Positions 21,895 through 42,177 of a stretch of DNA of 42,177 nt are shown piece by piece (the first letter of the stretch is position 1; each line of letters begins with the position of its first letter). The stretch comes from Spirochaetales bacterium (lineage in GTDB: Bacteria; Spirochaetota; Spirochaetia; DSM-2461). The notes beneath the pieces are model-generated. The model made no database searches. It saw only the letters and a list, made by a program, of their open reading frames with translations, and had not been told where the DNA came from. The translations under genes were made by a program, and so were the position numbers. The stretch is from NCBI GenBank assembly GCA_016936555.1, contig JAFGXR010000038.1:1-42177 (forward strand), in the 5' to 3' direction.

Positions 21895-22173
21895 ATGGAC
21901 AAAAACGAACTGTTTAAAACGGCAGCTCTGGCAAAACTGAAACTGGACGATGAAGAGGCGGACAAACTGGCCGCAGAAGTTTCAGCCATGCTCGACAATT
22001 TTTCCGCCATGATGGAAGCTGACGTTGAAGGGCTCGAGCCCACCACCCAAACCCTGCAGAAGGAGAACCGTACCCGGAGCGACAGCACCGGGTCCTCTAA
22101 TTTGTCCAATCAACTCCTCGATCGCGTTCCCGAAAGAGAGGACCGGTTTATCGTTATCCCCAATGTTATGTAA
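21895..22173 (+). CDS. gatC: Aspartyl/glutamyl-tRNA amidotransferase subunit C
   Basis: The 92-residue protein has the usual GatC pattern: LAKLKLDDEEADKLAAEVSAML, a central VEGLEPTTQ, then the conserved acidic/Arg-rich tail with R-x-D and a final VIPNVM. GatC wraps around GatA and GatB and stabilises the heterotrimer that amidates misacylated Glu-tRNA(Gln) or Asp-tRNA(Asn). SD AGGAG lies 6 nt upstream. It is the first gene of gatCAB-aspS, 53 bases after gltD. Confidence 0.95.
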   Translation: MDKNELFKTAALAKLKLDDEEADKLAAEVSAMLDNFSAMMEADVEGLEPTTQTLQKENRTRSDSTGSSNLSNQLLDRVPEREDRFIVIPNVM

Positions 22174-22190
22174 CAGAAAGATGAGGTTTT

Positions 22191-23576
22191 ATGAGTGATA
22201 TAAAAAGGTGGGCGAAAGCGCTGACTGAAAGCGCCGATTCCTATAAAAAATACGTGGGATCCTGGGAAGAGAAAATCGGAAGCTTCCTTCAGTTCGATCC
22301 CGAAGCCGCACAGGCTGATTCTTCCGGGCAAGGCCTTCTCGCCGTCATTCCCTTCGGTGTTAAAGATAATATTGCCGTCAAAGGCTTCAATATGACCTGC
22401 GGTTCGAAAATCCTGGAGAATTTCGACTGCCCCTATACGGCGACAGCCGTGGAAAACCTCCAGAAAGCCGGTGCTGTCCCCGTCGGAAAGATGAATATGG
22501 ACGAGTTCGGTATGGGCTCGTCGACGGACAACTCCGCCCTGGCGGAAACCCACAATCCCTGGGATACGAGCCGGGTCGCCGGCGGATCGAGCGGAGGAAG
22601 CGCCGCGGCTGTTGCGGCGGGGCAGGTTCCCTTTGCATTGGGCTCCGATACGGGCGGTTCGGTCCGTCAACCCGCTTCCTTCTGCGGCGTCTACGGACTG
22701 AAACCCACTTACGGCACGGTTTCGCGGTACGGCCTGACTGCCTATGCCTCCTCTCTGGAGACAATCGGAGTCTGCGCAGAAACGGCCGGTCTGACAAGGG
22801 ATGTCTTCAAAGCCATGCGCGGAAAAGATATCATGGATAACACAACGGTCGAGTACAAACCTTCGGGGAAAGATGATGTCGAAACTGTGGCTGTCCTGAA
22901 AGCGGGGGAGGGCGACCTCAACGTTGATGTCCTCCGTTCTTACAAAACTTCCATTGCCAGGCTGAAAGATCTGGGATATAAAACCGTTGAAGTGGAACTT
23001 CCCACACTGAAATACGTGGTTCCCGCCTATTATGTCATAGCGACAGCCGAAGCGAGCGCCAACCTGGCTCGGTTCAACGGAATCCGTTACGGCCTGGCGG
23101 CTCAGGGTGCCGAAACACCATCGGCTCTGATGGAGGAAACGCGGCACAGCGGTTTCGGCGACGAGGTGAAACTGAGAATCCTTCTGGGTACCTATGTGCT
23201 CCGGTCCGGATTTCAGGATCAGTTCTACCACCGGGCCCAGAAAATCCGGACGGCCATCCTCAATGATTTCAACAGAATCTTCGAAAGCGCCGATGCACTC
23301 ATGATGCCCGTTTTCCCGACAGCGGCTTTCCGTCACGGTTCTTCCGATCTGACCCAGCTTCAGCAGAAAGCGGCGGACCTCTACACCTGTTCCGCCAACC
23401 TGGCCGGACTTCCCGCCCTGGCCGTTCCCTCGACCATTGAAGAGGGGCTTCCCGTGGGCGTTCAGTTTATGGCTCCTGCCTTCGAAGAGGAGAGGCTGTT
23501 CAGAATCGCTGAAAAACTGGAAGCAGTCTTCCCTGCGCAAAAACCGGAAGGGTATTCACAGGAGTGGAAAGCATGA
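22191..23576 (+). CDS. gatA: Aspartyl/glutamyl-tRNA amidotransferase subunit A
   Basis: This 461-residue amidase-signature protein releases ammonia from glutamine for the GatB site. The catalytic triad is visible as Lys58 (GVKDNI), cis-Ser133 (GGSSGGS) and nucleophile Ser157 (GSDTGGSVRQPA); the 24-residue Ser-Ser spacing equals that of characterised GatA. The N-terminus is about 20 residues shorter than typical (usual length near 485) because the first helices are reduced, but the core is complete. It begins 17 bases after gatC with only a weak SD (GATGAGG). Its TGA overlaps the gatB ATG. Confidence 0.95.
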   Translation: MSDIKRWAKALTESADSYKKYVGSWEEKIGSFLQFDPEAAQADSSGQGLLAVIPFGVKDNIAVKGFNMTCGSKILENFDCPYTATAVENLQKAGAVPVGKMNMDEFGMGSSTDNSALAETHNPWDTSRVAGGSSGGSAAAVAAGQVPFALGSDTGGSVRQPASFCGVYGLKPTYGTVSRYGLTAYASSLETIGVCAETAGLTRDVFKAMRGKDIMDNTTVEYKPSGKDDVETVAVLKAGEGDLNVDVLRSYKTSIARLKDLGYKTVEVELPTLKYVVPAYYVIATAEASANLARFNGIRYGLAAQGAETPSALMEETRHSGFGDEVKLRILLGTYVLRSGFQDQFYHRAQKIRTAILNDFNRIFESADALMMPVFPTAAFRHGSSDLTQLQQKAADLYTCSANLAGLPALAVPSTIEEGLPVGVQFMAPAFEEERLFRIAEKLEAVFPAQKPEGYSQEWKA

Positions 23577-25003: not shown

Positions 25004-25023
25004 TTTCCGCGAAGGAGTTGAAC

Positions 25024-26802
25024 ATGAAATTGAAAAGAACACATAACTGCGGAGAGCTGACCAATAATAATAACGGCGAAACCGTCAGACTCAGCGGATG
25101 GGTGGAAAATTACAGAGACCACGGCGGCGTGGCTTTTATCGACCTGAACGACAGATGGGGGACGACGCAGATCGTTTTCCATCCCGATATCGCCGGAGAG
25201 CACCATAAGATCGCCCATACCCTGAGAAGCCAGGATGTGATATCCATCGAGGGGAAAGTTTCTGCAAGGCCGGAAGGGATGGCCAATGCCAGACTGGGAA
25301 CCGGAGAGATAGAGGTTTACATCAGCGATTTCGAGCTGCTCAACAAATCCAAAACACCTCCCTTCGAGATCAACCACTCGGGAGAGACCAATCAGGAAGT
25401 GCTTCTGAAGCACCGCTATCTCGATCTGAGAAGCCGGAAAATGCAGAAGAACCTCATTTTCAGAAGCGAACTGACCAATAAAATCAGAAATTACTTCAAC
25501 GATAAGCAATTCGTTGAAATCGAAACGCCCATACTGACAAGAGCGACACCGGAAGGCGCCCGGGATTACCTGGTTCCCAGCCGGACGAACCCCGGTAAAT
25601 TCTTCGCTCTGCCCCAGAGTCCCCAGCTCTTCAAGCAGGCTCTTATGGTCTCCGGTTTCGACCGCTATTTCCAGGTGGCCCGATGTTTCCGCGATGAAGA
25701 CCTGAGAGCGGACCGCCAGCCCGAGTTTACCCAGGTGGATATCGAAATGTCCTTCGTCGATCAGGAAGACGTTATGGCTGTTACGGAAGGTCTTATGGCT
25801 GTGCTGATGAAGGACATGTTCGGCAAAGAGCTGACTCTTCCCCTTCCCAGAATAACCTACGATCAGTCCATGCTGGAATACGGCTGCGACGCGCCGGATC
25901 TCCGCTTCGGACTGAAAATCAAAGATCTCAGCGATGTATTCGTTAATACGGGATTTTCCGTTTTCAAGAACGCCGTTAAAAACGGCGGGGCTGTCCGCTC
26001 CATCAATCTGAAAGGGGCCGCGGAAAAACTGAGCCGGAAAGACCTCGATGATATGACACCCTTTGCCGCCAGGTTCAAGGCGAAAGGGGTCGCCTGGATC
26101 AAGATGACAGCCGAAGGCCCCCAGTCTCCCATCGTCAAATTCTTCAGCGAAGAGGAATCAGCCGAACTCTATAAGAGAATGGATGCCGAAACCGGCGATG
26201 TTCTGATCTTCCTGGCTGATAAAGAGGAAGTGGTCTGCCAGTCTCTGGCGGCACTGAGACTTGATCTCGGGAAAAAACTGGATCTCATCGATGAGAACGA
26301 GCTGAACTTTACCTGGGTCGTCGATTTTCCCATGTTCGGGAAGGACCACAAAGCCCGGCCCACATCACTCCACCATCCCTTCACGGCTCCCAAATCGGAA
26401 GACCTGGACAGAATGGAGGACGATGTCTTCGATGTGAAAACTAATGCCTACGACCTGGTTCTCAACGGATGCGAGCTGGGCGGCGGATCGATCAGAATCC
26501 ACCGGAAAGACGTTCAGGAGCGGGTGTTCCGCATTCTCGGCATTGACGAAGAGGAAGCACGGGACAAATTCGGTTTCCTCCTCGACTCTCTGGAATACGG
26601 CGCGCCTCCCCACGGAGGACTGGCCCTCGGTCTGGACAGAATGGCCATGCTGTTCCTCAAGACGCCGTCGCTCCGTGATGTCATCGCCTTCCCGAAAACA
26701 CAGAAAGCCACCTGTATGATGACAGAGGCTCCCGGTAACGTGGAAGAGGAGCAGATGGAAGAGCTCTTCATCGCTTCGACTGTGGAAGAGGATGAGGACT
26801 GA
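25024..26802 (+). CDS. aspS: Aspartyl-tRNA synthetase, probably non-discriminating
   Basis: The 592-residue class IIb synthetase has an OB-fold anticodon domain (GWVENYRDHGGVAFIDLNDR), the motif 2 region FRDEDLRADRQPEFTQVDIEMSF, the bacterial GAD insertion and motif 3 GLALGLDRMAMLF. The anticodon domain carries His in RDHGG and Gly in RPEG. At the equivalent positions Pseudomonas aeruginosa AspRS has His31 and Gly83, residues reported to allow charging of tRNA(Asn) as well as tRNA(Asp), whereas the discriminating E. coli enzyme has Leu and Lys (recalled from the literature). This fits its place directly after gatCAB, which would convert Asp-tRNA(Asn) to Asn-tRNA(Asn). SD GGAG lies 6 nt before the ATG; an in-frame TTG 6 nt earlier is less likely. 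A terminator follows. Confidence 0.96.
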   Translation: MKLKRTHNCGELTNNNNGETVRLSGWVENYRDHGGVAFIDLNDRWGTTQIVFHPDIAGEHHKIAHTLRSQDVISIEGKVSARPEGMANARLGTGEIEVYISDFELLNKSKTPPFEINHSGETNQEVLLKHRYLDLRSRKMQKNLIFRSELTNKIRNYFNDKQFVEIETPILTRATPEGARDYLVPSRTNPGKFFALPQSPQLFKQALMVSGFDRYFQVARCFRDEDLRADRQPEFTQVDIEMSFVDQEDVMAVTEGLMAVLMKDMFGKELTLPLPRITYDQSMLEYGCDAPDLRFGLKIKDLSDVFVNTGFSVFKNAVKNGGAVRSINLKGAAEKLSRKDLDDMTPFAARFKAKGVAWIKMTAEGPQSPIVKFFSEEESAELYKRMDAETGDVLIFLADKEEVVCQSLAALRLDLGKKLDLIDENELNFTWVVDFPMFGKDHKARPTSLHHPFTAPKSEDLDRMEDDVFDVKTNAYDLVLNGCELGGGSIRIHRKDVQERVFRILGIDEEEARDKFGFLLDSLEYGAPPHGGLALGLDRMAMLFLKTPSLRDVIAFPKTQKATCMMTEAPGNVEEEQMEELFIASTVEEDED

Positions 26803-26823
26803 TATAGTCTGACAAAAATAATG

Positions 26824-26877
26824 AAAGCTGCTCATGAGTGATTTGTGAAAACTTTTCGCTTGTGTGCAGCTTTTTTT
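26824..26877 (+). terminator. Terminator after gatCAB-aspS
   Basis: AAAGCTGC (26824-26831) pairs with GCAGCTTT (26866-26873), followed by more T. An inner GTGAA/TTCGC stem can form within the 34-nt loop. It lies 21 bases after the aspS stop. Confidence 0.75.
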
Positions 26878-26945
26878 GAATACTGAAAGAATCCCGTTTC
26901 GGCATTGTTATTTCTCTTCCGCAATCTTCATATTCTGAAAATCTG

Positions 26946-26977
26946 TTGACAATTATCCTTTATCAAGGAGATATTAT
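26946..26977 (+). promoter_or_regulatory. Probable promoter of the envelope pair
   Basis: TTGACA (26946-26951) is followed by GATATT after 18 nt or TATTAT after 20 nt. The rest of the 240-bp intergenic region holds only the aspS terminator. The implied leader to the ATG at 27044 is about 60 nt. Confidence 0.45.
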
Positions 26978-27043
26978 AGTCACGGTGAGAAATTTATAAT
27001 TATCTCTATGTGAAAATATGTTAGTTCTGCAAGTGGGCTTGTT

Positions 27044-29269
27044 ATGAAGGGATTTCTTCGATTCATTCCATTTCTTTTTTTCTATGCGATCGCAAGCACT
27101 GTTCTGCTGGGAGCACAACAGAACCTGAATGATTTTTATTCCTACCCGCTATCGATAGGTGTGACATTTCAACAGCTTACTCCTGTAGGTCTCGTTGAGC
27201 GCCAGAGTAACGTCAGTGATCTATCGCTGGAGCTGAGATACCCTTTGCCGCGGTATCGGACACTTTTCCCCCTGCTCAAGATCGGGATGACGACTTTCGA
27301 TTCAGATGAGACTGCCGATCCGATAATTCTCGATGGATCACTTGACCCGGGGGCGAGTTTACCCGACTTCGATGGGAAAAACAGCTGGGATCACTATAAT
27401 TTCTGGACAGCCCTGGGAATGGGATACAGTCGGCGGCTGAGCCGTGAATTCGAGATCGGCGGTGAATTCCTCCTGGGTATTCACCGGAGTTATTACGATC
27501 GCCGTGCCGTGGATTCCGGCGGAGAGTGGTATCCTTTCGGCGAAACCGGTTTTACGGCGGGGCTCAATGGCAAAATAACTCTGAACCCTTCATTTAATCT
27601 GAGTGTCGATATAACCCCCGGTTTTTTGTATAACCGCTCCATGGGAATGCTGTACGATTTCGATGGAATATATTTCGGACTGGGGTTTGCCGCCCATTTC
27701 CGTTTCGGCAGAGACCCGGAAGCCGCCGGAAACGAAATACGCGCCCTGAAGTTTGATGTGCCGGAAGTTCCTCCGGTTTTTGCAGCCATGCAGAACGTTT
27801 ACGTCGATAGACCCTTCACAGAGATTATCATCACAAACAGCGAGAAGGTGCGGCTGGAGGATCTTTCTGTCAGTTTTTACCAGTCGGCTTACATGGATGC
27901 ACCGACTCTCTGTGCAGAGCTGGATGAACTGGCACCCGGTGAATCAGTCAGAGTCCCTCTCTTTGCGGCTTTTAACGAAAGTGTATTTCTAACGCAAGGT
28001 GAAAGACCTCTTACCGGTGAAATCAGGATCGAATATCTTTATAAGAGCCGGCCGGCGACACAGAACCGGAGTCTCGGTTTTACACTGCAGGACCGGAATT
28101 CTCTTGTCTGGGATAGCGATGAAAAAGTCGCCGCATTTATCACACCGAGGGACAGCGGCGTCCGTAATTATGCAAGTTTCATCACCGACCGATTAAGGGA
28201 ACACAATACGGACTATCTGCCCGATCCGCTGGAACAGGCCATGCAGATCTATCACGCACTGGATTCCATGGATATCGATTATCAGTCCGACCCCGCTTCT
28301 CCCTTTGCTCAGGTACAGGGTGACCGGGTCTATATCGACACCGTCAGTCTTCCCCGGGAAACCCTGGTCCGGGGGATAGGAGATTGTGATGATCTGACGG
28401 TTTTGTATAATGCTCTGCTGGAATCGATCAATGTTTCAACGGGATTTGTAACTGTTCCCGGTCATATCTATGCGGCTATTGATACAGGACTCTCTCCCCG
28501 GGAGTACAGGAAGATTCATCCGGACCGCGACATGAGTCTCGTTTTCAGTGATTCCTTATGGATTCTGATAGAAGTGACTCTTATCGGAAAGGCGGATTTT
28601 CTCGAAGCCTGGCATACAGGAATGCAGGAGTATAACCTTCTTGAAGACCGACCCGGAGACAGGCATCTCTATTCGACGCGCATCGCTCAGCAGGAATACC
28701 GGCCTGTGGGTCTTCAGGAAACCGATCTCGGGCTTCAGTATGGAGATTCTCAAGTTGTGGTGGAAGCTTTTGTCCGGGAAAGGGACCGGCTGGGCAGAGC
28801 CATTCTCGAACCGATCCGCCGGCAGGCTGAAGCCCGCAGTTCCTCCCGCAGCTGGAACACTTTCGGAGTGACAGCGGCACGGCTCAATGACTATTCCTCG
28901 GCAGAGAATGCATTCGGGCGGGCCATTGCTCTGGACCGGAAAAACCTCGGTGCTTATGCGAACCTGGGATCTCTCATGTTTCTTCAGGGAGATTTTGCGG
29001 GAGCCCTCACCGCTTACGCCGATGCCCTTAAAATCTCCGATGGGACAGATCCGGCCAGGGAGAGTTCCATACTTGTCAATATGGCCATAGCCCAGAATAC
29101 TCTGGGCAGATCGGATGCCGCGGAACAAACCCTTGGCCGAATCAGGGAAATCGATCCGGAACGTGCCGAAAAACTGAGCTATGCGGTTCTCCAGCCTTCA
29201 GAGGAAGAGGGGAGGGCATCAGGGCCTGCAGATTTTAACATTATATTCATCGAGGAAGAGAAGGAATGA
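27044..29269 (+). CDS. Envelope protein with beta-barrel-like, transglutaminase-like and TPR regions
   Basis: The protein has 741 residues. A signal peptide (about 1-23, cut near LLGAQQ) is followed by about 210 residues of alternating beta-rich sequence (GFTAGLNGKITLNPSFNLSVDI, IYFGLGFAAHFRFG) resembling an outer-membrane barrel. An Ig-like stretch follows (about 240-345). The transglutaminase-like fold has Cys448 in GIGDCDDLTVLYNALL and His474 in VPGHIYAAI, a plausible Cys-His pair with a later Asp/Glu. Two to three TPR units lie at about 610-710 (AYANLGSLMFLQGDFAGALTAY). The exact reaction is unknown; such domains often act as proteases or in envelope polymer handling. The SD is weak. Its TGA overlaps the ATG of the next gene, and the two are probably made together. 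Confidence 0.75.
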   Translation: MKGFLRFIPFLFFYAIASTVLLGAQQNLNDFYSYPLSIGVTFQQLTPVGLVERQSNVSDLSLELRYPLPRYRTLFPLLKIGMTTFDSDETADPIILDGSLDPGASLPDFDGKNSWDHYNFWTALGMGYSRRLSREFEIGGEFLLGIHRSYYDRRAVDSGGEWYPFGETGFTAGLNGKITLNPSFNLSVDITPGFLYNRSMGMLYDFDGIYFGLGFAAHFRFGRDPEAAGNEIRALKFDVPEVPPVFAAMQNVYVDRPFTEIIITNSEKVRLEDLSVSFYQSAYMDAPTLCAELDELAPGESVRVPLFAAFNESVFLTQGERPLTGEIRIEYLYKSRPATQNRSLGFTLQDRNSLVWDSDEKVAAFITPRDSGVRNYASFITDRLREHNTDYLPDPLEQAMQIYHALDSMDIDYQSDPASPFAQVQGDRVYIDTVSLPRETLVRGIGDCDDLTVLYNALLESINVSTGFVTVPGHIYAAIDTGLSPREYRKIHPDRDMSLVFSDSLWILIEVTLIGKADFLEAWHTGMQEYNLLEDRPGDRHLYSTRIAQQEYRPVGLQETDLGLQYGDSQVVVEAFVRERDRLGRAILEPIRRQAEARSSSRSWNTFGVTAARLNDYSSAENAFGRAIALDRKNLGAYANLGSLMFLQGDFAGALTAYADALKISDGTDPARESSILVNMAIAQNTLGRSDAAEQTLGRIREIDPERAEKLSYAVLQPSEEEGRASGPADFNIIFIEEEKE

Positions 29270-32190
29270 CAGGGAAAATCTTCAGAGGGAAAATACTCCT
29301 TTACATCTGCGGGGCAATCACATTCTTGTTTACAGCCTGTAATCTCCTTGACGAAGAGCTGTTACGCCAGCTCAAAGATAATGAAAGCCCTGAAATAACC
29401 ATTACCTCTCCTCTTTCCTTCAGCAGCTACGGCAGCGTGATCAGCCTTGAGGGCCATGTCAGGGACGATTCGGGTATTATTACCGGATTAAGTTATTCGA
29501 TTGAAGGGACTGCTATCAGCGGAGTTCTTACTCCGGATGTTGATGGAACATTCTCCAGGATTATTACGGCCCGGACCTCTGAAGGAGTACAAATAGTCGA
29601 TGGAAACCGGATTATTGCCGTTACTGCCACCGATCCCAGCGGCAACAGTTCGACTGTCAGTGTGGAAGTCCGCCGTATCGTCGGAGCCGGTGATATTTCC
29701 GGTTTCACCGCACTGCCTTTGAATAAGGCAGTCAGGTTGAGCTGGGACGAAATCCCCGGAGCAACCGGATATTCAGTCCGGATGCTCCAGTATGACCGGA
29801 GCATCATTGTAACGGACAATAGTGTTGTCTGGGAGAACCTTGACAACGGCAACCTCTATAGTTTTATTGTTACAGCCCAGATACCCGATGAAATCGGATC
29901 CGATGCGGTTTCCGAAACCCTTTCAGCAGTCCCTCTCAGTATTCGCACACTGGCTCCCAGGGTAAGCCGGCTGGCCTTCGGAGAAGCTCTTATCGACTGG
30001 GATCAAATTAATGCATCCGGATCCTACGTGGTGGAACGACGGATCGATGAAGGCTCCTGGTCTGTTTACAGGATCACAAGCTCTCATGAACTGTACGATA
30101 ATTCTCTCATTCCCGGCCATGTATATGAATACCGGATCAGCCCATACGGAATAGAAAGCGTTGCAAGCGACAGCATCGTTCTGCGGGCTCCGCTCTTTCC
30201 CCCAGGAGAATCAGCGCTTTTATCCAGTGTCATGATCCAGAAGGAGTTCCAGTTATCCACTGTCCTTAAAGACAATTACGCTTATACTGCCGAAGGGGAC
30301 TCGGGTATCAGGATCACCGATCTCAGAGATCCGACCAGGCCGCTTCATGCAGGTTATTGGGATATCGGACGGACAGTTCTTTCCATAGACAGCTGCGGAG
30401 ATCTTGTCAGCATTGTGAGTATGGAGACAGAGGATTACCTCGCGATTATGAATAACAGTTTCGGTGAAACTATCGATGACGTTCTTACCGTGCTGAGGAC
30501 CGATCTTGTTTCCCTCGAGAACCCGGGCTCTCCGGTTTTTAAAGGCAGCCTCATGAATTCGGGATTCCATCCCTTTATTCCCGTACCGGTGGTCAGTGCA
30601 GCCGATGATGATTTTGCGGCATTCGCCTATTTTAAGGATTATGATGCGGGGCTTGGTCAGGCCTATTCCGGACTGGATCTGTACAGCCGGGGACCGGGCG
30701 GAACGCTCGATTTTCTTGCTTCGGTTAATCTGGGCAGCGATGCAGCCAGTCTGATTGCCGGGTTGGCCATCTCTGATGGATATCTCTATGTTTATCATAA
30801 CGAGCTGGCCATGAGGGTCTATGATCTGAATGCAGATCCTTCTTCCCCGCCGGTCATAACATCTCTGCTCTATTCCGGATCTCTGCCCGATGACGGTATG
30901 CCGCTCTCCATGAGTGCGGACGGTGATCTGCTTCTCATTACGACCCTGAATGGCAATGCCCGTCTTCTCGATATCAGTTCCCCTTCCTCACCGGTTGTTC
31001 TTGATCTTTTCTCCCGTCCGGCGGAAGCTTCGGGATGGGCCATGGACGGATTTATCCGGGGGGAAAAACTCTATATTGCCTACACCAATGGATTCTACCA
31101 AACCGTTGATGCGTCGGATCCCGGGAATCTGATTTCACTGGGAACCGTAACGCTCGCCCACGATAGCAGTACACTTTCCTTCGACAGAGACTCGGTCATT
31201 ATCAGCGGAGAGGGAGGATTTTCCATGTTGGCTGTCAGTTCCGGACGGAATTTCATGTCTGAATCGGTTCTGTCCGGCATTGCAGTCGATTATGCTGTCC
31301 GGGGAAACCAGCTCTACACCAGCCTCTCCTATCCTGATACCGGTGTGGATATCCATGATATTTCCAATCCGGGATTTCCTGTGAAAACGGGACATCTGGA
31401 AACACCAGAAAATGATTATATCAGGCAGTTGTACGCAAGCGGAAATTTCCTGTTCGGTCTGGGGACCTCCGGGAGCGATGCCGTCCTGGCAGTTTTTGAC
31501 ATTACACCGGATTCTCAGCCCGGTTTGATCAGCCGAACAGTATTTTCCGAAACCTTATACAATCTTGACGTATCGGGATCCCATATTTATATCGGCAGCA
31601 GCTCAGGTATATTGATTTATGAAATCAGTGATTTGTCAGACCCCCGATACATCTATACGCTCAACCGCAATTCAATGGTACGTATCCTCCTGGTTCAGGA
31701 CAATATTCTATACGCTGATAACGGTTTCCAGGATCTCTATGCTTTTGATGTGAGCAGCCCGTCCCTGCCTGTTCTCCTGGGCGTTTATACCTATCCGGAA
31801 AGCAAGGCAATCAACAGGTTGTATTTTGACTATGACAGATTGTATGTCATCAGAGGGGATGACAACCTGTCCGGGCATCTGGTGCAATATGAGCCGGCAA
31901 GCCTGTCCGGAGGTGTTGCCAGACCCGCTCCCCTGAACGATTTAACCCTGGACATTGCACCCGATGCTCTTTATGTACAGGGCGATCTGGCAGTTCTTAC
32001 CACACACACATGGATTTCCGGTCTGACTTACGGAACGGTCCGGCTTTATGATATCAGCGACCGGGATGCTCCGGTCCTGATGGACAGTACCGGTTCATAT
32101 CCCGGCTGGCTGAGTTCTGTAACCATGGTCAAAGATCAGTTGTATGTGATGGGAAGTGCGGGATTCAGAATATTCAGTCTGAGTGAGTGA
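29266..32190 (+). CDS. Large lipoprotein with Ig-like, FN3-like and LVIVD/beta-propeller repeats
   Basis: The protein has 974 residues. The signal ends in FLFTAC, with Cys25 as the lipidation site (a spirochaete-like lipobox). After a Pro-rich linker, an Ig-like domain (about 40-135) begins SPEITITSPLSFSSYGSVISL. Two FN3-like segments follow (about 140-310). The remaining 650 residues are repeats of the LVIVD type, each with a pattern such as GDLLLITTLNGNARLLDISSPSSPVVL, which fold as beta-propeller blades. It is probably a surface or periplasmic binding protein; the ligand is unknown. It overlaps the upstream gene by ATGA. Its stop codon coincides with the point where similarity ends in the reverse-strand TspO-like fragment. 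Confidence 0.8.
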   Translation: MTGKIFRGKILLYICGAITFLFTACNLLDEELLRQLKDNESPEITITSPLSFSSYGSVISLEGHVRDDSGIITGLSYSIEGTAISGVLTPDVDGTFSRIITARTSEGVQIVDGNRIIAVTATDPSGNSSTVSVEVRRIVGAGDISGFTALPLNKAVRLSWDEIPGATGYSVRMLQYDRSIIVTDNSVVWENLDNGNLYSFIVTAQIPDEIGSDAVSETLSAVPLSIRTLAPRVSRLAFGEALIDWDQINASGSYVVERRIDEGSWSVYRITSSHELYDNSLIPGHVYEYRISPYGIESVASDSIVLRAPLFPPGESALLSSVMIQKEFQLSTVLKDNYAYTAEGDSGIRITDLRDPTRPLHAGYWDIGRTVLSIDSCGDLVSIVSMETEDYLAIMNNSFGETIDDVLTVLRTDLVSLENPGSPVFKGSLMNSGFHPFIPVPVVSAADDDFAAFAYFKDYDAGLGQAYSGLDLYSRGPGGTLDFLASVNLGSDAASLIAGLAISDGYLYVYHNELAMRVYDLNADPSSPPVITSLLYSGSLPDDGMPLSMSADGDLLLITTLNGNARLLDISSPSSPVVLDLFSRPAEASGWAMDGFIRGEKLYIAYTNGFYQTVDASDPGNLISLGTVTLAHDSSTLSFDRDSVIISGEGGFSMLAVSSGRNFMSESVLSGIAVDYAVRGNQLYTSLSYPDTGVDIHDISNPGFPVKTGHLETPENDYIRQLYASGNFLFGLGTSGSDAVLAVFDITPDSQPGLISRTVFSETLYNLDVSGSHIYIGSSSGILIYEISDLSDPRYIYTLNRNSMVRILLVQDNILYADNGFQDLYAFDVSSPSLPVLLGVYTYPESKAINRLYFDYDRLYVIRGDDNLSGHLVQYEPASLSGGVARPAPLNDLTLDIAPDALYVQGDLAVLTTHTWISGLTYGTVRLYDISDRDAPVLMDSTGSYPGWLSSVTMVKDQLYVMGSAGFRIFSLSE

Positions 32191-32313
32191 CGGGAGAGAA
32201 TCGGAGATCTCTCCGGTGGTGATCCCGTTAATGGGGAGGATATTGGCCAGGGCGTTCACAGCCATCATGACAACAAAAGACATCAGAACCAGGGCTTTAC
32301 TCAATTTAGTCAT
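32095..32313 (-). pseudogene. 5' fragment of a TspO-like (tryptophan-rich sensory protein) gene
   Basis: The minus-strand reading from ATG at 32313 has a good SD (AGGAAA, 5 nt upstream). It begins MTKLSKALVLMSFVVMM, then NALANILPINGITTGEISDS. This matches my memory of the N-terminus of TspO/MBR-type tryptophan-rich sensory proteins, which have one TM helix followed by a (L)PLNG-x-TTGEISD-like loop. Similarity stops at residue 41; from there the frame only reads the antisense of the lipoprotein gene to a stop at 32095. The remaining four helices are missing. It is either a truncated relic at a rearrangement junction or, less likely, a 72-residue single-TM protein. Confidence 0.55.
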
Positions 32314-32369
32314 ATAATTTCCTTTGCGTTGAATCTCTACGGACATTTTAATTCCAAATCCATGCAAAG

Positions 32370-32398
32370 TTGAAAAATAAACTCTTTTTTAATAGTAA
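32370..32398 (+). promoter_or_regulatory. Candidate promoter of the GNAT-ABC-DinB operon
   Basis: TTGAAA (32370-32375), a 17-nt spacer and TAGTAA (32393-32398), 29 nt before the ATG. The downstream leader contains AGCCTCAGGCT, a small palindrome. The match is moderate. Confidence 0.35.
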
Positions 32399-32427
32399 AA
32401 TCCGGAGCCTCAGGCTAATCTGGTGTA

Positions 32428-32880
32428 ATGGACTGGAAGATTGAAACATCAGGCAGGGAAGGACTCGGCATTATAAAACCCCTCTGGGAGAAGCTGAATG
32501 AAATTCACAGGCATGATTCCCGCCATTTCAAGGATTTCTACAGCGGCTTTACATTTGAAGAGCGGATGAGAAGTTTCGATGAGCTGATTGATGGCAATTT
32601 CCATCTTCAGATCGTTTACGCCGGTCATGAGGCTATGGGCTACTGTATATCCACGGCCCGTGGAAACATTGGTGAAATCGATTCGATTTATCTGGATGAA
32701 AAGGCCAGAGGTTCCGGTCTGGGATCTCTTCTGGTCGAAAACGCCATGCTCTGGATGAGAGGGAGGAAATGCAGCCGTTTCCGCGTATCGGTTGCCGACG
32801 GCCATGAGTCGGTCCTCGAGTTTTACGGGAAACTGGGATTCCTTCCCAGGCTTTCGGTGCTCGAGTATTCCGGGGATTGA
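32428..32880 (+). CDS. GNAT-family N-acetyltransferase
   Basis: The protein has 150 residues. The acetyl-CoA-binding core is clear: EIDSIYLDEKARGSGLGSLLVENAMLWM contains the beta-4 strand, the R/Q-x-x-G-x-G/A pyrophosphate loop (ARGSGLG) and helix alpha-3, followed by VADGHESVLEFYGKLGFLPR at about 120-140, the usual N-x-x-A-x-x-F/Y-Y-x-x-x-G-F motif with an S/V variation. The acceptor substrate cannot be told from sequence. No clear SD is seen. The TGA stop overlaps the TTG start of the next reading frame, so the gene heads a tightly coupled four-gene set. Confidence 0.88.
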   Translation: MDWKIETSGREGLGIIKPLWEKLNEIHRHDSRHFKDFYSGFTFEERMRSFDELIDGNFHLQIVYAGHEAMGYCISTARGNIGEIDSIYLDEKARGSGLGSLLVENAMLWMRGRKCSRFRVSVADGHESVLEFYGKLGFLPRLSVLEYSGD

Positions 32881-33891: not shown

Positions 33892-34371
33892 ATGACAGTA
33901 GAGGAAAAACGCCTCCATGTGGACAACATTCTGGAGGATCTTCATCTTTTTGACGATCTTATCGGACTTCCCCGGGACGTTCTGGACTTCCGCCCCTCTC
34001 CCGATCGCTGGACCATCCATGAACATCTCATTCACTGTCTCGATGTCGACGTGGCCAATTTTACCCGTTACAGGGTGGGGATCGTCCATCCCGGTTCGGA
34101 AATCATCGGCATGGATGATGACTGGACGGCGGGGCTGCTCTATGAGACCATCAGTCCGGAAGAGGCCATAGAGACAATTAAACTGATTCGGAAAATGACC
34201 CATCGCCATCTTTCCGCCGTCGTGGACGATGACTGGACGCAATACAGCATTCTCTATAAAAAATACGGAATTCTGGATTTCGAGACTTTTATTCCCGTGA
34301 TGCACAAACATCCGAAGGCTCACAGGGAGTTTATCGACAAGCTTCTCGGGGAATACAATTCAGCGGTATAG
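33892..34371 (+). CDS. DinB/YfiT-like four-helix protein
   Basis: The protein has 159 residues. It shows the DinB-like pattern of a four-helix bundle with metal-binding histidines: DRWTIHEHLIHCLDVDVANF (about residues 38-57) and VMHKHPKAHREFID near the C-terminus. Members are often thiol- or metal-dependent transferases, but most are uncharacterised. A GTG start at 33886 is possible; the ATG at 33892 is preferred because AAGGAG sits 5 nt before it. The SD overlaps the end of the ABC gene, so it is the last gene of the coupled set. Confidence 0.8.
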   Translation: MTVEEKRLHVDNILEDLHLFDDLIGLPRDVLDFRPSPDRWTIHEHLIHCLDVDVANFTRYRVGIVHPGSEIIGMDDDWTAGLLYETISPEEAIETIKLIRKMTHRHLSAVVDDDWTQYSILYKKYGILDFETFIPVMHKHPKAHREFIDKLLGEYNSAV

Positions 34372-34380
34372 AAGTTAATA

Positions 34381-34419
34381 GAGAAGGGTGGAGATTGAAA
34401 TAAGACAATCTTTATTCTC
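34381..34419 (+). terminator. Weak nested hairpin after the DinB-like gene
   Basis: GAGAA/TTCTC and AGATTG (34392-34397) / CAATCT (34406-34411) form a nested stem 10 nt after the stop. It lacks a clean T tract, so terminator function is uncertain. A second small stem CTCAG/CTGAG lies at 34451-34465. Confidence 0.35.
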
Positions 34420-34479
34420 TCTCCTTGTCAGACTTTGTCAATACTCTGGACTCAGTTTTGCTGAGGGCGCGTTCTTCCA

Positions 34480-34549
34480 AACCCTCACCCCGGCCCTCTC
34501 CCAAAGGAGAGGGAGGAAAGTTAGTTTTATACGGCGGGGGATGAGGGTT
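34480..34549. repeat. Nested inverted repeat (CCCTCACCCCGGCCCTCTCC type)
   Basis: Outer arms AACCCTCACCCC (34480-34491) and GGGGATGAGGGTT (34537-34549) pair with one bulged A. The inner stem CCCTCTCC/GGAGAGGG (34494-34501 / 34506-34513) is perfect. The left half shares CCCCGGCCCTC and AAAGGAGAGG with the inside of the 109-214 repeat. The right arm reaches into the stop codon of the MATE gene. It sits between the 3' ends of convergent genes. Confidence 0.75.
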
Positions 34550-35969
34550 ATGTGTGTCTGATTTCCCTTGTTCCGTTCAGGAGGCCCCGCATGACATATC
34601 GGACCCAGATGAGACTGACAACTGTCGATGTCACCATTCCCGTTGCCATTCCGTACCAGACACCGTGTATGCCCCAGTCGAAAACGAGGACGTAGATATA
34701 CGCCGCCGGTACGGCGATAATCAGAACTCTGAGAAGAGTTATGAAAAAAGCGGGCATGGGGTAGCCTATGGCCTGGAAGACACTCCGGTTGATGATCCCC
34801 ACTACCGCGAGGCTGAAGAAAAGTTCCACAGCATATGTCTGCTTCACTGCGTAGTTCACGACTTCATCAATATTGGAAAAGAGCGGGTAAACAAATCTGG
34901 CAATCACCATCATCAGAACGGCGAATGAGAAAACAACGGCAAATCCCGCGGCATAGCCCACTTTGACCGCATGGTCGGCTCTCTTCAGATTCCCCCTTCC
35001 GGCATTCTGTCCCACGATGGTAATCATGGCGGCAGCCAGGGCGAAGCTGGGCATCAGAACAATCTGGTCGAGCCTTCCGCAGAGGGAATAGGCCGTCATG
35101 GCCAGAGGATCGATGGAGACGACGAGACGGTTCAGCAGCAGGAAGGCTATGGACATGGTTATCTGTCCCATGGCCTGAGGCAATCCGATTACTGTGATCT
35201 TTTCTATAATTTCCAGCCGGACATTTTTAACGGACCAGCTGATGGGGACAAGGGTTTTTTTAGCGGCGAAAATGCTCAGGGCATATAAGAGAGAAATAAA
35301 CTGGGCCAGCCCCGTGGCGATGGCGGCGCCCCGGACGTCCAGATTAAGGACAAAGATGAAAACAGGGTCCAGAACGATGTTCACGACCGTACCGATGATC
35401 ATGGCCACCATCATGTGCTTCATCAGTCCCTCGCCCTGGAATATCCCGAAAAACACATTTCCCACAAAAGCGAAAAGGGCGACGGGCGTTACCCAGAGAA
35501 GGTAATTAAGGCCGTGTTTATAGTAATCGCCTTCCGCTCCCATGGCTCGGACAATCTGTGGGCCGAAGCCGTAAACCGTTCCCATACAGATTATTGAAAG
35601 GATAATGGCCATGATCAGGCCCGATTCGGCGATTTTGTTCAGAACTTCTCTGTTCTTTTCACCGATGGCCCGGGCCACTAGTGAAGACACTCCGACGGAA
35701 ACCCCCGAAGCCAGTGCCATAAAAAAGAAAATGACCGGAAAGATCAGTCCTGTCCCGCCGACATAGGAGGGGTCATTGAGGTCGATGCGGCTGACCCATA
35801 TAGTATCCACAATGTTGTAAAAAAGCTGGAAGAGCATTCCCGCCAGCACGGGAAGAGACAATCTCGCGATAAGAGGCAGAACCGGACCTTCAAACATGCC
35901 CGGCACTTCTCTCCTGGCCATTTCGCCGTGGTCGGCGTTTTGCAACTGTTCTGTATTTTCGTTATTCAT
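34548..35969 (-). CDS. MATE-family efflux transporter
   Basis: The protein has 473 residues with about 12 TM helices in two homologous halves. The first half begins VLPLIARLSLPVLAGMLFQLFYNIVDTIWVSR and continues VSSLVARAIGEKN; the second half has GLPQAMGQITMSIAFLLLNR and IVGQNAGRGNLKRA. These are the typical MATE positions. It exports cationic compounds using Na+ or H+. A start at 35978 (MGSMNNEN) is open, but that ATG overlaps the -10 element, so the second Met (35969) is preferred. It is divergent from the rlmN-like gene with a shared -35 region. No SD is evident. Confidence 0.92.
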   Translation of the reverse strand: MNNENTEQLQNADHGEMARREVPGMFEGPVLPLIARLSLPVLAGMLFQLFYNIVDTIWVSRIDLNDPSYVGGTGLIFPVIFFFMALASGVSVGVSSLVARAIGEKNREVLNKIAESGLIMAIILSIICMGTVYGFGPQIVRAMGAEGDYYKHGLNYLLWVTPVALFAFVGNVFFGIFQGEGLMKHMMVAMIIGTVVNIVLDPVFIFVLNLDVRGAAIATGLAQFISLLYALSIFAAKKTLVPISWSVKNVRLEIIEKITVIGLPQAMGQITMSIAFLLLNRLVVSIDPLAMTAYSLCGRLDQIVLMPSFALAAAMITIVGQNAGRGNLKRADHAVKVGYAAGFAVVFSFAVLMMVIARFVYPLFSNIDEVVNYAVKQTYAVELFFSLAVVGIINRSVFQAIGYPMPAFFITLLRVLIIAVPAAYIYVLVFDWGIHGVWYGMATGMVTSTVVSLIWVRYVMRGLLNGTREIRHT

Positions 35970-36033: not shown

Positions 36034-37101
36034 ATGAATCTGCTTGGATACACCTATGAGGATATTCTCGCCCTGGTCAAGGAAAACAAAATGGGGGGGC
36101 GGGAAGAAGCTAAAAAACTCTTTAATGATTTGTATGGAGAAGGGAGATGTGAGGCTGGTCGGAAGCAAGCGTCCAGTTCGCCCATGCTGCCCGGGCCGGG
36201 TAACGGATACGTCTGCGATCTGCCTCCTGTCAGCGGTTCGATCGAGGAAGGGGGGACTATCAAGTTTCTGTTGAAACTCGAAGACGGGCTTGAGACGGAA
36301 TCAATCATCCTGCCTATGGGCGGCCGCTACAATACGCTCTGCATTTCCTCCCAGATCGGATGCCGATGGTCCTGCGCCTTCTGTGAGACGGGGAAAATGG
36401 GCCTTATCCGGAACCTGACCAAAGTGGAGATCCTCGCCCAGTTGATGACCGCCGAACTGGTATATAAAAAACCAATCCGCAATATCGTTTTCATGGGCAT
36501 GGGCGAGGCTTTTGACAATTTCGATAATGTTTTGGGGGCCATTGATATATTCACCCATCCCTGGGCCATGAACATTCCCAAAAAATCGATCTGCATTTCA
36601 ACTGTCGGCAATGTGGAGGGAATCAGACGGCTGACAGAGCTGGCCCGGAAAGAGAGAGACAAAAATTATCATAAGCTTCATCTGGCCGTGAGCCTCAACG
36701 GAGCCGATGATGCCGCAAGAAGTCATTTGATGCCCGTAAACCGCCGATGGCCTCTGGCAGAGCTGAAAGAGAGCCTGATGGAAACGGAGCAGTTCGGCAG
36801 GAAAGATCTGCTCTATTTTGAATATATCATGATCAAAGGGGTGACCGACGGCGAGGAAAACGGCCGGAAGCTTATCGATTTCGCCAAGGGGTTCCCGAAA
36901 ATTACCGTCAATCTGATCCCCTTCAACCCCGGTAGAGATAGCGGGTTCGAGAAACCGACGGCTGAGGAGCTGGAGCGTTTTCACGGACAGCTGCTCAGTG
37001 CGGGAATCCGGGTTTTTACGCGTAACAGCCAGGGCGAGCGCATCATGGCCGCCTGCGGCCAGCTGGGGAACCGCAAGTCAGAAAATACTGATAAAATGTG
37101 A
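36034..37101 (+). CDS. RlmN/Cfr-family radical-SAM RNA methyltransferase
   Basis: The protein has 355 residues. The [4Fe-4S] cysteines are Cys110, Cys114 and Cys117 (GCRWSCAFCETG). The two methyl-transfer cysteines are also present: Cys103 (TLCISSQIG) and Cys341 (MAACGQLGN), matching C118 and C355 of E. coli RlmN. VFMGMGEAFDNFDNV, AVSLNGADDAARSHLMPVNRRWPL and NLIPFNPG complete the family signature. These enzymes methylate C2 (RlmN) or C8 (Cfr) of A2503 in 23S rRNA, and RlmN also A37 of some tRNAs. The FCETGKMG loop differs from the common FC-(A/S)-T, and the N-terminal accessory domain is short, so it may be a variant subfamily; I do not assign rlmN or cfr. No SD; probably leaderless. Confidence 0.85.
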   Translation: MNLLGYTYEDILALVKENKMGGREEAKKLFNDLYGEGRCEAGRKQASSSPMLPGPGNGYVCDLPPVSGSIEEGGTIKFLLKLEDGLETESIILPMGGRYNTLCISSQIGCRWSCAFCETGKMGLIRNLTKVEILAQLMTAELVYKKPIRNIVFMGMGEAFDNFDNVLGAIDIFTHPWAMNIPKKSICISTVGNVEGIRRLTELARKERDKNYHKLHLAVSLNGADDAARSHLMPVNRRWPLAELKESLMETEQFGRKDLLYFEYIMIKGVTDGEENGRKLIDFAKGFPKITVNLIPFNPGRDSGFEKPTAEELERFHGQLLSAGIRVFTRNSQGERIMAACGQLGNRKSENTDKM

Positions 37102-37139
37102 TAAATTGGAATTACCCCCAATGAAGGAGCGTATTCCTG

Positions 37140-38162
37140 TTGTCTGAATCTAAGGGAATCCGGAAAATTTCATCAATTCTCTTACTGGGCAGCCTATCCA
37201 TGCTATTCGCTGAGGTCTTTTCCGGAGCTTCCCAATGGTGGTTCATTCAGCCATGGGGATGGCTGCTCACTTTTCCTCTCTATCTAAGCCATGTTCTGTT
37301 CTTTATGTGGATCGCCTTTAAGCTGCATAAAACCTCGTTGCTACACCTCTACCTCTTCGGGGTTCTTTTCGGACTTTATGAGTCATGGATCACGAAAGTG
37401 TTATGGGCAGGGTATATGAACGAAACGGGTCCCGGATTCGGTACTCTTTTCTCCCTTGCCATGCCTGAATTCCCTATTCTTGTTTTTTTCTGGCATCCTC
37501 TCATGTCTTTTATTCTCCCTGTTCTCGTTTATGAAGTCCTGACAAAGCAGGTTCTGAATGAACATGAATGGATTCTGCGAAAAAGAGTGAAAAAGTCAAT
37601 TATACTTTCCGTTCTTTTATTTTTGTTCAGCTCATTCCTGGCTAAGGGAAATCAGTTTGATCTCATATCCGCCAACCTTTCCTTAGGCGGTACTTTGCTG
37701 CTGATCATTCTTCTGTTTTTTATTTCAGGAAACCCGGATTCTTCAATTTTCTATTACCGGCGAAAGCCATTTATTGCGATTGTGATTTATTTGATTCTCC
37801 TCTATACGGCCTCTTTTTTCTTGCTTGTCCAGGATAGAATTCCCCTTGCGATTCTTCCTTATGTGTCGATCATAGTCTGTTATATTATCGTCTTCCTTCT
37901 GATCGGCCGCTCCAAGAGGTCCCGGAGTTCTTTCCGGCAATCAGAAAAAAACCTGTACTCACCGGTTGATTTGATCCCCTTCGCTCTGATATCAATGATT
38001 TCAATCAATTTAACCTGTCTGTTGCCTGATGTCAGCAATGTTCTGTTAATCATGAGTTACTTAGCCTTGATCCCGTCGGGTATGGCCATATTTCTCGGGA
38101 TAGCCCTTCGGATCTTTGCCGCCTCTGTTTTCAGAAAATGTAATCATTGTGATTCTAAATAA
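37140..38162 (+). CDS. Polytopic membrane protein of unknown function
   Basis: The protein has 340 residues with about eight to nine hydrophobic helices (for example ISSILLLGSLSMLFAEV, LLTFPLYLSHVLFFMWIAF, SVLLFLFSSFLA, LLIILLFFISG). A notable loop is GLYESWITKVLWAGYMNETG near residues 78-97. The C-terminus ends CNHCDSK with a Cys-x-x-Cys pair. I do not recognise a family. The first in-frame start is TTG, with AAGGAG 10 nt upstream, a rather long gap. It follows the rlmN-like gene by 38 bases on the same strand. Codon usage seems more AT-rich than its neighbours, compatible with a later arrival (impression only). Confidence 0.7.
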   Translation: MSESKGIRKISSILLLGSLSMLFAEVFSGASQWWFIQPWGWLLTFPLYLSHVLFFMWIAFKLHKTSLLHLYLFGVLFGLYESWITKVLWAGYMNETGPGFGTLFSLAMPEFPILVFFWHPLMSFILPVLVYEVLTKQVLNEHEWILRKRVKKSIILSVLLFLFSSFLAKGNQFDLISANLSLGGTLLLIILLFFISGNPDSSIFYYRRKPFIAIVIYLILLYTASFFLLVQDRIPLAILPYVSIIVCYIIVFLLIGRSKRSRSSFRQSEKNLYSPVDLIPFALISMISINLTCLLPDVSNVLLIMSYLALIPSGMAIFLGIALRIFAASVFRKCNHCDSK

Positions 38163-40419: not shown

Positions 40420-40442
40420 ATGAAAAGAGTCAGGGGTAGAGT

Positions 40443-40607
40443 ATGCTAAGCGAGTACAGTTTCGGCAATGATCAGATCATCCTGGATCAGATCAGAGAGA
40501 GAATGGCGGAATTTGAAGAAACAGCAAAAATCTACAGATTGAACCGGCTGTGTCAGAAAGGCAGAACCCGGAAGGGGGAACGCCATTCTTCAAACAAACG
40601 GGGGTAG
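40443..40607 (+). CDS. Small 54-residue protein downstream of pspC
   Basis: ATG at 40443, TAG at 40605-40607, no internal stop. AGGGG lies 7 nt upstream. The protein begins MLSEYSFGNDQIILDQIRER, continues with an acidic/amphipathic helix (MAEFEETAKIYRLNRL), and ends in a strongly basic tail (KGRTRKGERHSSNKRG). I do not recognise a family. It is 23 bases after pspC and before the terminator, so it should be cotranscribed from the sigma-54 promoter. The helix-plus-basic-tail layout suggests a binding or regulatory peptide (inference). Confidence 0.6.
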   Translation: MLSEYSFGNDQIILDQIRERMAEFEETAKIYRLNRLCQKGRTRKGERHSSNKRG

Positions 40608-40645
40608 ACCTTGAGTTTATGCCCCTGGAAGAGATAGGAATAGGG

Positions 40646-40676
40646 AAGCTGCCTTCAACCGGGCGGCTTTTCTTTT
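40646..40676 (+). terminator. Rho-independent terminator of the pspC operon
   Basis: AAGCTGCC (40646-40653) pairs with GGCGGCTT (40662-40669) with one G-T pair, followed by the T-rich stretch TTCTTTT. Confidence 0.8.
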
Positions 40677-40711
40677 GTCCGGCTCCTTGACAAGAACGGG
40701 CAAAGGATTTA

Positions 40712-42177
40712 ATGGTTTCTTATATGAAAGCAAACCAGATTTTTTATCCCAAGTTCTTTTCTCTGCTCCGTTCCGGAATGGACCGGAAGCAAATCATTCA
40801 GGATATCCTGGCCGGCGTCGTTGTCGGCATCGTGGCTCTGCCCCTTTGCATCGCTTTTGCCGTGGCTTCGGGCGTCGATCCCGGAAAAGGACTTGTTACG
40901 GGAATTCTGGCTGGATTTATTATCTCCCTTCTGGGGGGGAGCCGGGTTCAGATCGGCGGCCCGACCGGCGCTTTTGTCATCCTTATTTACGGGGTCGTGC
41001 AGACCTATGGTTTTAACGGCCTTTTCTTCTCGACGATCATAGCCGGTATTCTGCTGATTCTCTTCGGTCTTCTGAAACTGGGAAATCTTCTCAAATACAT
41101 TCCCCATCCGCTCATCACGGGGTTTACAAGCGGAATAGCCCTTGTCATTTTCTCCACACAGATCAAGGACGCCCTGGGGCTCTCTCTTGAAAAAGTTCCC
41201 GCTGATTTTCTGGAAAAATGGTCGCTTTTTCTCAGCCATGCCGGCGAACTCAATCCCTATTCCCTCGGGCTGACTTTAGCTTCAATCTCCATCATTCTTA
41301 TACTGAGAAAAGTGACGAAACGGATTCCCGGTTCTTTTATCGCCATTATTTTTCTGAGTCTGGTTGCCGCTCTTTTCCGGCTGCCCGTCGAAACGGTAGG
41401 ATCGCTATACGGTTCCATTCCCCGATCATTTCATCTGGGGATTCCCGCTCTCGATCCCGGTGCTCTGCCGGCTTATCTGCAGGCCGGACTGGCCATAGCC
41501 CTGCTGGGAGGGATGGAGTCGCTCCTGTCCGCAACGGTTGCCGACGGAATGATCAGCGGTAACCACCGCTCCAATACGGAGCTGATAGCACAGGGGATAG
41601 CCAATATCGTCTCTCCCCTTTTCGGCGGGATTCCCGCTACGGGAGCGCTTGCCCGCACAGCTGCCAATGTAAAGAACGGCGGCAGGACGCCGCTGGCGGG
41701 AATTGTACATGCTCTCACCCTTCTTTCCATCATGTTGTTTTTCGGCCCCTTCGCCGTCTATATTCCCATGGCCGCGCTGGCGGGAATACTCATCGTCGTG
41801 GCTTACGATATGAGTGAGCTCCACACGTTCAAAGCTTATCTGAAAGGGAACATGTACGACAGAATCATTCTGCTCGTTACCTTTCTTCTGACTGTTTTCG
41901 TCGATCTGGTGGCTGCCATAGAAGTGGGCATCGTTCTCTCCAGCCTGCTTTTCATGAAGAGGATGTCCGATATAGCCGAAAAGAGAATCGATAACGTTGT
42001 GGATCTCGATGTCATAGACGATTATTCATCGCTGCCCGAGTCTATCGGAATCTATGAAATCAGCGGGCCGCTTTTTTTCGCTTCGGCCAGGCGGTATATT
42101 GAGTTGATGAAAGAAGTGGGCATCAGGAAGAAAGTCATTATCATCCGCATGCGCCATGTCGCTTTTATCGATAAAAC
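40712..42177 (+). CDS. SulP-family anion transporter (3' end beyond window)
   Basis: The frame is open for 488 codons to the window edge. The N-terminal QDILAGVVVGIVALPLCIAF and VQIGGPTGAFVILIYGVVQ are SulP hallmarks, followed by PHPLITGFTSGIAL, LPAYLQAGLAIALLGGMESL, TELIAQGIANIVSPLFGGIP and GALARTAANVKNGGRTPLAG. About 11-13 TM helices are present and the cytoplasmic STAS domain begins near SIGIYEISGPLFFASARRY before the sequence ends. The family moves sulfate, bicarbonate or other anions; the substrate is not evident. ATG at 40712 has AAAGGA 4 nt upstream; the in-frame ATG at 40724 is the alternative, since a TTGACA at 40687 could place transcription start near it. Confidence 0.93.
   Translation, partial: MVSYMKANQIFYPKFFSLLRSGMDRKQIIQDILAGVVVGIVALPLCIAFAVASGVDPGKGLVTGILAGFIISLLGGSRVQIGGPTGAFVILIYGVVQTYGFNGLFFSTIIAGILLILFGLLKLGNLLKYIPHPLITGFTSGIALVIFSTQIKDALGLSLEKVPADFLEKWSLFLSHAGELNPYSLGLTLASISIILILRKVTKRIPGSFIAIIFLSLVAALFRLPVETVGSLYGSIPRSFHLGIPALDPGALPAYLQAGLAIALLGGMESLLSATVADGMISGNHRSNTELIAQGIANIVSPLFGGIPATGALARTAANVKNGGRTPLAGIVHALTLLSIMLFFGPFAVYIPMAALAGILIVVAYDMSELHTFKAYLKGNMYDRIILLVTFLLTVFVDLVAAIEVGIVLSSLLFMKRMSDIAEKRIDNVVDLDVIDDYSSLPESIGIYEISGPLFFASARRYIELMKEVGIRKKVIIIRMRHVAFIDK

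Follow-up and report, generated by a model that had tools for sequence, protein, structure and literature searches.

How did a reading frame that begins as a TspO-like gene come to lose its likeness to that family at the very stop codon of the lipoprotein gene on the other strand? The question is raised by a stretch of 42,177 nucleotides (nt) from a Spirochaetales bacterium (assembly GCA_016936555.1, contig JAFGXR010000038.1, positions 1 to 42,177), the whole of which is called the window here. Comparison with related genomes, above all with the congener designated as G011, makes it very probable that a replacement took place at this site: a foreign envelope operon of two genes came in and displaced resident genes along with five sixths of the TspO-like gene, of which a 5' stump was left. 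The features are collected in Table 1.

Table 1. Features of the window at and around the two breaks of collinearity with G011
Feature	Position	Strand	Description and basis
aspS, resident left flank	25018..26802	+	98% identical in G011, 87% in G012 and G013
Interval holding the left breakpoint	26796..27043	.	Collinearity ends at 26795 in the last aspS codons; first incoming gene starts at 27044
Gene 1 of the apparently incoming pair	27044..29269	+	741 residues; TPR repeats and a weak transglutaminase-like match below the Pfam cut-off; nearest relative in another family
Gene 2 of the apparently incoming pair	29266..32190	+	974-residue lipoprotein with LVIVD beta-propeller repeats (Pfam); lipobox by eye; C-terminus native in position
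Right breakpoint of collinearity with G011 (C3:220695/220696)	32190..32191	.	blastn and change-point model; resolution about 32185-32194
Stump ORF	32313-32095	-	ATG at 32313, TGA at 32097-32095, 72 residues
Retained 5' stump	32191..32313	-	Codons 1-41 of a TspO-like membrane protein gene (eight long helices, tryptophan-rich); tblastn and conserved columns
Extension of the stump ORF	32095..32190	-	31 codons and TGA, lying antisense to the final 96 bases of the lipoprotein gene; past residue 43-44, no TspO-like family match
GNAT acetyltransferase, resident right flank	32428..32880	+	Divergent from the stump; adjoins the intact gene in G011 too

The TspO-like stump

The 72-residue open reading frame (ORF) starts with an ATG behind a Shine-Dalgarno motif, AAGGAA, and its residues 1-41 are MTKLSKALVLMSFVVMMAVNALANILPINGITTGEISDSLP. 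The loop N-x-L-A-N-x-L-P-I-N-G-x-x-T-G-x-x-S-D follows the N-terminal helix. All these elements had been described correctly in the initial annotation, and the single transmembrane helix named there fits the first long helix in the predicted model of an intact relative. Residues 1-43 were searched with tblastn (E<=0.01) in 26 genomes of the family, and six genomes matched, the window's own counted. The best match, with 72% identity (E 1e-14), lies inside an intact ORF of G011. The five matching genomes among the 25 others have long open frames of 258-284 codons (284 in G011) and no 72-residue ORF; the remaining 20 gave no match. The N-terminal similarity claimed from the sequence is real and well beyond what chance would give.

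The stump corresponds to about the first sixth of the gene that is intact in G011 (259 residues), and the match of the G011 protein to the window ORF ends at residue 44. An ungapped comparison of 34 homologues gives 16 columns within residues 11-41 with conservation of >=60%; the stump keeps 15 of them, and the sole mismatch is also present in intact G011. The later helices and the W/H motifs (FxPAGxTFSIWG, WHY, and GWISVATIAN, which are the alignment consensus of TspO-like relatives) were found neither past residue 41-44 nor elsewhere in the draft genome. Searches of the 72-residue ORF against Pfam and NCBIfam gave weak, chance-like matches only. The window ORF is a remnant of the TspO-like family, not a complete member.

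Compared with G011, the 41 stump codons have a nonsynonymous divergence (dN) of 0.17, a synonymous divergence (dS) of 1.88, and a ratio of 0.09, computed from 30.5 synonymous sites only; the GNAT neighbour has 0.14, 1.12, and 0.12, respectively. No decay is visible in the stump, which fits a truncation that is recent relative to the split from G011. The low ratio is no demonstration of present-day selection, and the stump is probably non-functional. A role of the 72-residue ORF as a working small membrane protein, or as the marker of a regulatory antisense RNA, is very improbable. The ORF does retain a start codon and AAGGAA, runs for 72 codons without a stop, and has the low dN/dS in its retained codons, but this ratio may date from before the truncation, and such a short ORF occurs in none of the 25 other family genomes. 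Further, the tail of 31 codons runs antisense to a coding gene and is short enough to arise readily by chance, only the first of eight long helices is present, and the only sigma-70-like site found in 32000-32500 is on the plus strand. Still less probable is that the stump was kept for use, its start and upstream region driving antisense transcription into the 3' end of the lipoprotein gene, or its product being a small membrane peptide of one TspO-like helix. If this were true, the newcomer operon would have been given a regulator of its own by the replacement itself, in one step.

The block between aspS and the stump

In blastn, collinearity of the window with G011 is lost at 26795, at the end of aspS, and regained at 32191, the base after the lipoprotein stop. 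The block between these flanks is 5,395 bp in the window and 3,227 bp in G011; alternative non-homologous segments between the same flanks were seen for this one genome pair. The intact TspO-like gene of G011 is found at the same site, between aspS and the same GNAT, ABC, and DinB genes, and so provides the unbroken counterpart that the initial annotation had suggested looking for. The genes of the G011 block all lie on the minus strand: two ORFs of 370 residues (lipobox by eye) and 192 residues, a decayed gene for a solute-binding protein (L018:9269-9900), and the remainder of the TspO-like gene. In the congener G013, aspS is directly followed by a solute-binding-protein gene with an open 255-residue frame (PF00497, E 7.2e-14). 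It is 27.8% identical (E 1.5e-28) to the decayed gene of G011 and has the same orientation, which points to an old age of this part of the G011 arrangement in the genus. The G013 locus ends shortly after this gene, and the order beyond lies outside the sequence. The TspO-like gene of the third congener, G012, adjoins another solute-binding-protein gene (PF00497), which is 23% identical to that of G013 and has no significant match in the G011 block. Gene order was searched in the same 26 genomes as above.

When the full G011 protein was searched against the window's own genome, the stump was the only match at E<=10. PF03073 had no match in this genome; a control matched in 11 of 14 genomes, in five of them above the cut-off. 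The DNA of the G011 block had no match in the window's own genome at E<=0.001, an empty answer that alone shows little, and the three other proteins of the block had nothing significant in the window (tblastn, best E 0.12). A simple insertion that split the TspO-like gene without loss was rejected, as the remaining codons were not found in the window or the draft genome. Beyond the initial annotation, a resident block of the G011 type thus looks replaced, not merely interrupted, and the 741-residue gene has the look of a horizontal acquisition. Searches of the window for tRNA genes, and for Rfam families at gathering score, gave none.

An assembly artefact, with unrelated contigs joined at 32190/32191, is most improbable. 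The draft is fragmented into 134 contigs, but in G011 the flanks of the block lie close together, at a distance of 3.2 kb, so misassembly is unlikely; it would take two misjoins, independent of each other and at precisely corresponding places. The overall G+C content of block and flanks is also similar.

At the right end, nt identity to G011 at a fixed offset is 71.5% over 32191-32313 and 27.5% over 32100-32190. According to a change-point model, the first homologous base is most likely 32191 (posterior 0.375), and positions 32185-32194 sum to 0.96. This places the break at the stop codon within about 6 bp, the single base not being certain. The loss of similarity had been put at residue 41-42, and the codon of residue 42 (Ser, TCA) is, as had been noted, the complement of the lipoprotein stop TGA at 32188-32190.

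Residue 43 (Leu) is the same in 35 of 35 intact homologues examined. Residue 42 is Ser in three of them, Asn in 31, and Asp in one, and the three Ser use AGY, not TCA. The Leu43 and Ser42 counts were the basis for considering a break near 32184/32185, with the lipoprotein stop supplied by antisense DNA of the TspO-like gene; positions 32185-32188 hold about 0.21 of the posterior. This candidate is disfavoured because Asn42 predominates, the three Ser use AGY, and the propeller homologues of the lipoprotein end alike. Eight of these with a stop (one each in G005, G048, G225, G295, and G150, and three in G026) end 1-6 residues after the last strand of GLQVINL type, and the window lipoprotein, ending in ...GFRIFSLSE, does so two residues after it. 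Other ends exist as well: the G068 homologue ends directly at the last strand, a 1481-residue G011 protein nine residues beyond it, and 922-residue (G022) and 1191-residue (G011) homologues match in the N-terminal part only and have different C-termini. The C-termini were compared by eye, and most BLAST alignments stop earlier. The lipoprotein thus finishes where its propeller homologues do, which is the outcome expected for the C-terminus check that the initial annotation had suggested; its stop is therefore probably native, and the break lies at or just behind it.

No shared repeats of >=8 bp were found between 26781-26860 and 32151-32240. Between the whole left interval, extended to 27060, and the right end, one direct 8-mer and inverted 8- and 10-mers are shared, possibly by chance. 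The inverted 10-bp match (ATATTCTGAA), possibly a chance one too, joins 26930-26939, upstream of the incoming pair, and 32164-32173 at the end of the lipoprotein gene. A stem-loop at 32181-32250, directly after the lipoprotein stop, is built from TspO-like coding DNA; four of 200 shuffles were as good (z -1.79). It has no T run, its core taken by itself does not stand out (31 of 200 shuffles did as well), and no terminator-like site was found.

The incoming pair and the truncated family

The 741-residue protein was found at E<=1e-100 in 49 of 394 genomes of the class, its own counted. Its best match outside is G295, a member of another family, with 58% identity over residues 16-582, while the best matches in its own genus are only 36-40% identical (39% in G011, 38% in G013). 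In a tree of 26 rows, the window protein and that of G295 group together at 100/100, and the proteins of G011, G012, and G013 form a separate clade; four further family loci (L028, L031, L033, and L048) were left out of the tree. The gene tree conflicts with species kinship, and this grouping, together with the identities to the other family and within the genus, indicates horizontal acquisition. Four further paralogues are present in the window's own genome, with 28-31% identity. The homologue of G295 (L164:3-1844) lies on a contig of 67% G+C that ends inside the gene at residue 582. Residues 257-481 of the window protein gave a partial match to NCBIfam NF058533 (anti-phage protein ProA) with E 1.4e-12 and 45.9 bits, the cut-off being 1500.

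The lipoprotein has no match in the three congeners at E<=1e-5. It was found at E<=1e-25 in seven of the 394 class genomes, its own counted, the other six matching partially with 31-38% identity, and a pattern search of genome contigs matched 13 stretches, none of which was confirmed. The two genes stand in the same order as in the window in G048 and G068, in the opposite order in G150 and G026, and divergently in G295. G+C content at third codon positions (GC3) is 0.53 for the pair vs. 0.57-0.65 for six shared flanking genes. The envelope pair is apparently foreign to the lineage, the 741-residue gene by its tree and the lipoprotein gene by the fact that no close relative was found in the genus.

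Relatives of the TspO-like gene were found in at least 576 confirmed stretches among genome contigs, 80 of which were kept. Forty plasmid records contain a match, and eight of the 15 listed are annotated as tryptophan-rich sensory protein. PF03073 recognized one of 28 intact relatives (E 2.8e-6) and none of the other 27 at E<=1. The intact G011 protein has neither a PF03073 nor an NCBIfam match, and a profile search of PDB sequences gave no TSPO chain among the matches listed at E<=10. A structure was predicted for a relative at some distance, from Trichococcus ilyis (L090:5959-6777), the G011 protein itself not being the modelled one; the model has a pLDDT of 92.5 and eight long helices. In the VIA comparison, its first five long helices matched TSPO chain 4uc1_B with Z 14.3 and a root-mean-square deviation of 3.7 over 148 of 156 residues. 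The six best rows are TSPO chains with Z 11.7-14.3, and the next row has 8.7, to be read with the caution that Z values of about 13-14 are common between unrelated helical bundles. Foldseek alone placed TSPO at rank 9 (E 2.1, probability 0.77) and gave nothing at E<=0.001.

According to a passage of PMC8243069, classical TSPO has five helices. The model suggests that an intact relative of the stump folds like TspO/MBR (PF03073) over its first five long helices and differs from it by three extra C-terminal long helices after the TspO-like part; the window ORF keeps the first helix and the loop only. As far as the predicted fold and public annotation go, the label "TspO-like" is a fair one, and hardly so by the Pfam profile. 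The widespread family of this composition is thus one that PF03073 mostly misses, and the only NCBIfam match of its first member is far below the cut-off.

History of the exchange and its meaning

The stump and the intact gene stand at the same place and the G011 gene is the best match of the stump; the common ancestor of the window's species and G011 would therefore have had an intact TspO-like gene divergent from GNAT. In the window's lineage, or in the donor of its allele, a two-gene envelope segment would have replaced everything from the end of aspS to codon 41/42. The right crossover would have fallen at the lipoprotein's own stop, with the C-terminus kept and the 3' flank lost. The TspO-like gene would have lost all that follows its first long helix and loop, and presumably its function with it. 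The start codon, the Shine-Dalgarno motif, and the divergent upstream region remain, and transcription antisense to the lipoprotein 3' end may be possible. Illegitimate recombination, perhaps with homology in one flank, would be the best-fitting mechanism. The boundaries of the block are read directly from the alignment with G011; its direction and agency we infer. The initial annotation had proposed that the pair arrived, or intervening DNA was lost, by one recombination event; arrival of the pair and loss of resident DNA are both supported, and a single event would be the simplest reading.

Two further courses of events were weighed which do not exclude the replacement or each other; both retain the stump and the acquired pair, and they differ only in history. 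In the first, insertion of the pair between aspS and the TspO-like gene came before a separate deletion, in which the lipoprotein 3' flank and codons 42-259 were lost. This is a possible course of rather low probability, and the same tentative standing applies to its corollary that the deletion was halted at the stop codon by selection against deletions into the lipoprotein gene. Such selection would account for a break that respects the stop codon, and a stump without visible decay fits a recent deletion; the resident genes that separated the TspO-like gene from aspS are also missing. One extra event is needed, however, and no intermediate with the lipoprotein gene was seen in any of the three congeners.

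In the second, a variant of the replacement, the segment including the stump came ready-rearranged from another species by homologous recombination in the flanks, which we regard as conceivable but doubtful. It draws on the low identity to G011 beside the junction, which is 70.7% in the first 300-base bin and 73.3% in the second and rises to 94% at 33991-34290, and on dS values that fall from those of the stump and GNAT to 0.58-0.71 in ABC and 0.31 in DinB. The stump and GNAT are no outliers, however, as other low-identity bins (72.3% at 34291-34719, with 129 gap columns, and 55.3% at 40422-40721) and other collinear genes with dS 1.1-1.3 (3982-5094 and 5100-8720) exist, and the stump value comes from few synonymous sites. 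The raised dS of the stump and GNAT was for this reason rejected as proof of import. The window is a mosaic of segments of differing divergence, with gene dS from 0.05 to 1.3 when three likely spurious antisense ORFs (22110-23540, 40709-41239, and 41426-41824) are left out, so an already rearranged allele may have been imported. Two genes at 36034-38162 are near-identical to G011 at synonymous sites (dS 0.05-0.08, with 0.50 and 0.77 in the neighbours), which points to recent exchange between the two species. A second difference between the species lies at 11235-15747, where about 300 bp in G011 correspond, in the window, to a glutamate-dehydrogenase-like ORF of 445 residues (named by eye) and a minus-strand ORF of 871 residues.

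Several points weigh against the replacement as favoured here. The intact gene is at this site in one congener only, G011; G013 has no TspO-like match, and the G012 copy is in a different neighbourhood without other matches to G011 at the locus. The GNAT gene was found at E<=1e-10 in five of the 26 family genomes, and within the genus only in the window's genome and G011. With G012 and G013 lacking this flank, the ancestral state is deduced from the stump and a single genome, and variation within the genus may extend to the TspO-like/GNAT stretch itself. The left breakpoint is only loosely placed, the 8- and 10-mers shared by the block ends are absent from the right junction itself and do not pin the mechanism, and the draft has a completeness of 95.19. 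As for the foreign origin, the two contigs of G295 have 66-67% G+C vs. 50% in the window, so G295 stands for a related lineage and is not itself the direct donor. Instead of acquisition, an old paralogue that diverged fast or was lost elsewhere might conceivably explain the 741-residue gene. A distant propeller gene is present elsewhere in G011 (25.8%, E 9e-15, blastp), and the low GC3 is a weak argument, as two ORFs of another window-only insert have 0.54-0.55.

Known systems offer two comparisons. Excerpts of Touzain et al. (2010, PMC2884548) propose homology-assisted illegitimate recombination for small variable segments, or dimorphic loci, and describe those of E. coli as mostly without a tie to known mobile elements. 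Short segments between backbone stretches and possible pseudogenization of flanking genes are common to both cases; as far as these excerpts go, those segments vary within a species, whereas here two species of one genus differ, 5.4 kb having taken the place of 3.2 kb, with the break at a native stop. In homology-facilitated illegitimate recombination, as outlined in parts of PMC3240628, foreign DNA likewise comes in and a resident deletion goes out, with homology at one end and a non-homologous joint at the other. The same parts report, from earlier work, insertions and deletions of about 1 kb, with a deletion similar in size to the insert and usually 3-10 bp of micro-homology, and mostly duplications in the paper's own E. 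coli test. The present case differs from what is given there in its size of several kb. The literature matches listed contained nothing on this arrangement or on eight-helix TspO-like proteins, and no claim of being unpublished is made.

The rearrangement is otherwise an ordinary one, a known kind of bacterial variable segment. Its interest lies in a segment exchange resolved nearly to the base, in which names can be given to the flanks and to the displaced and incoming genes alike, and the break spares the incoming gene and destroys the resident one. The locus lets one ask whether the TspO-like function is dispensable once the envelope operon is gained.

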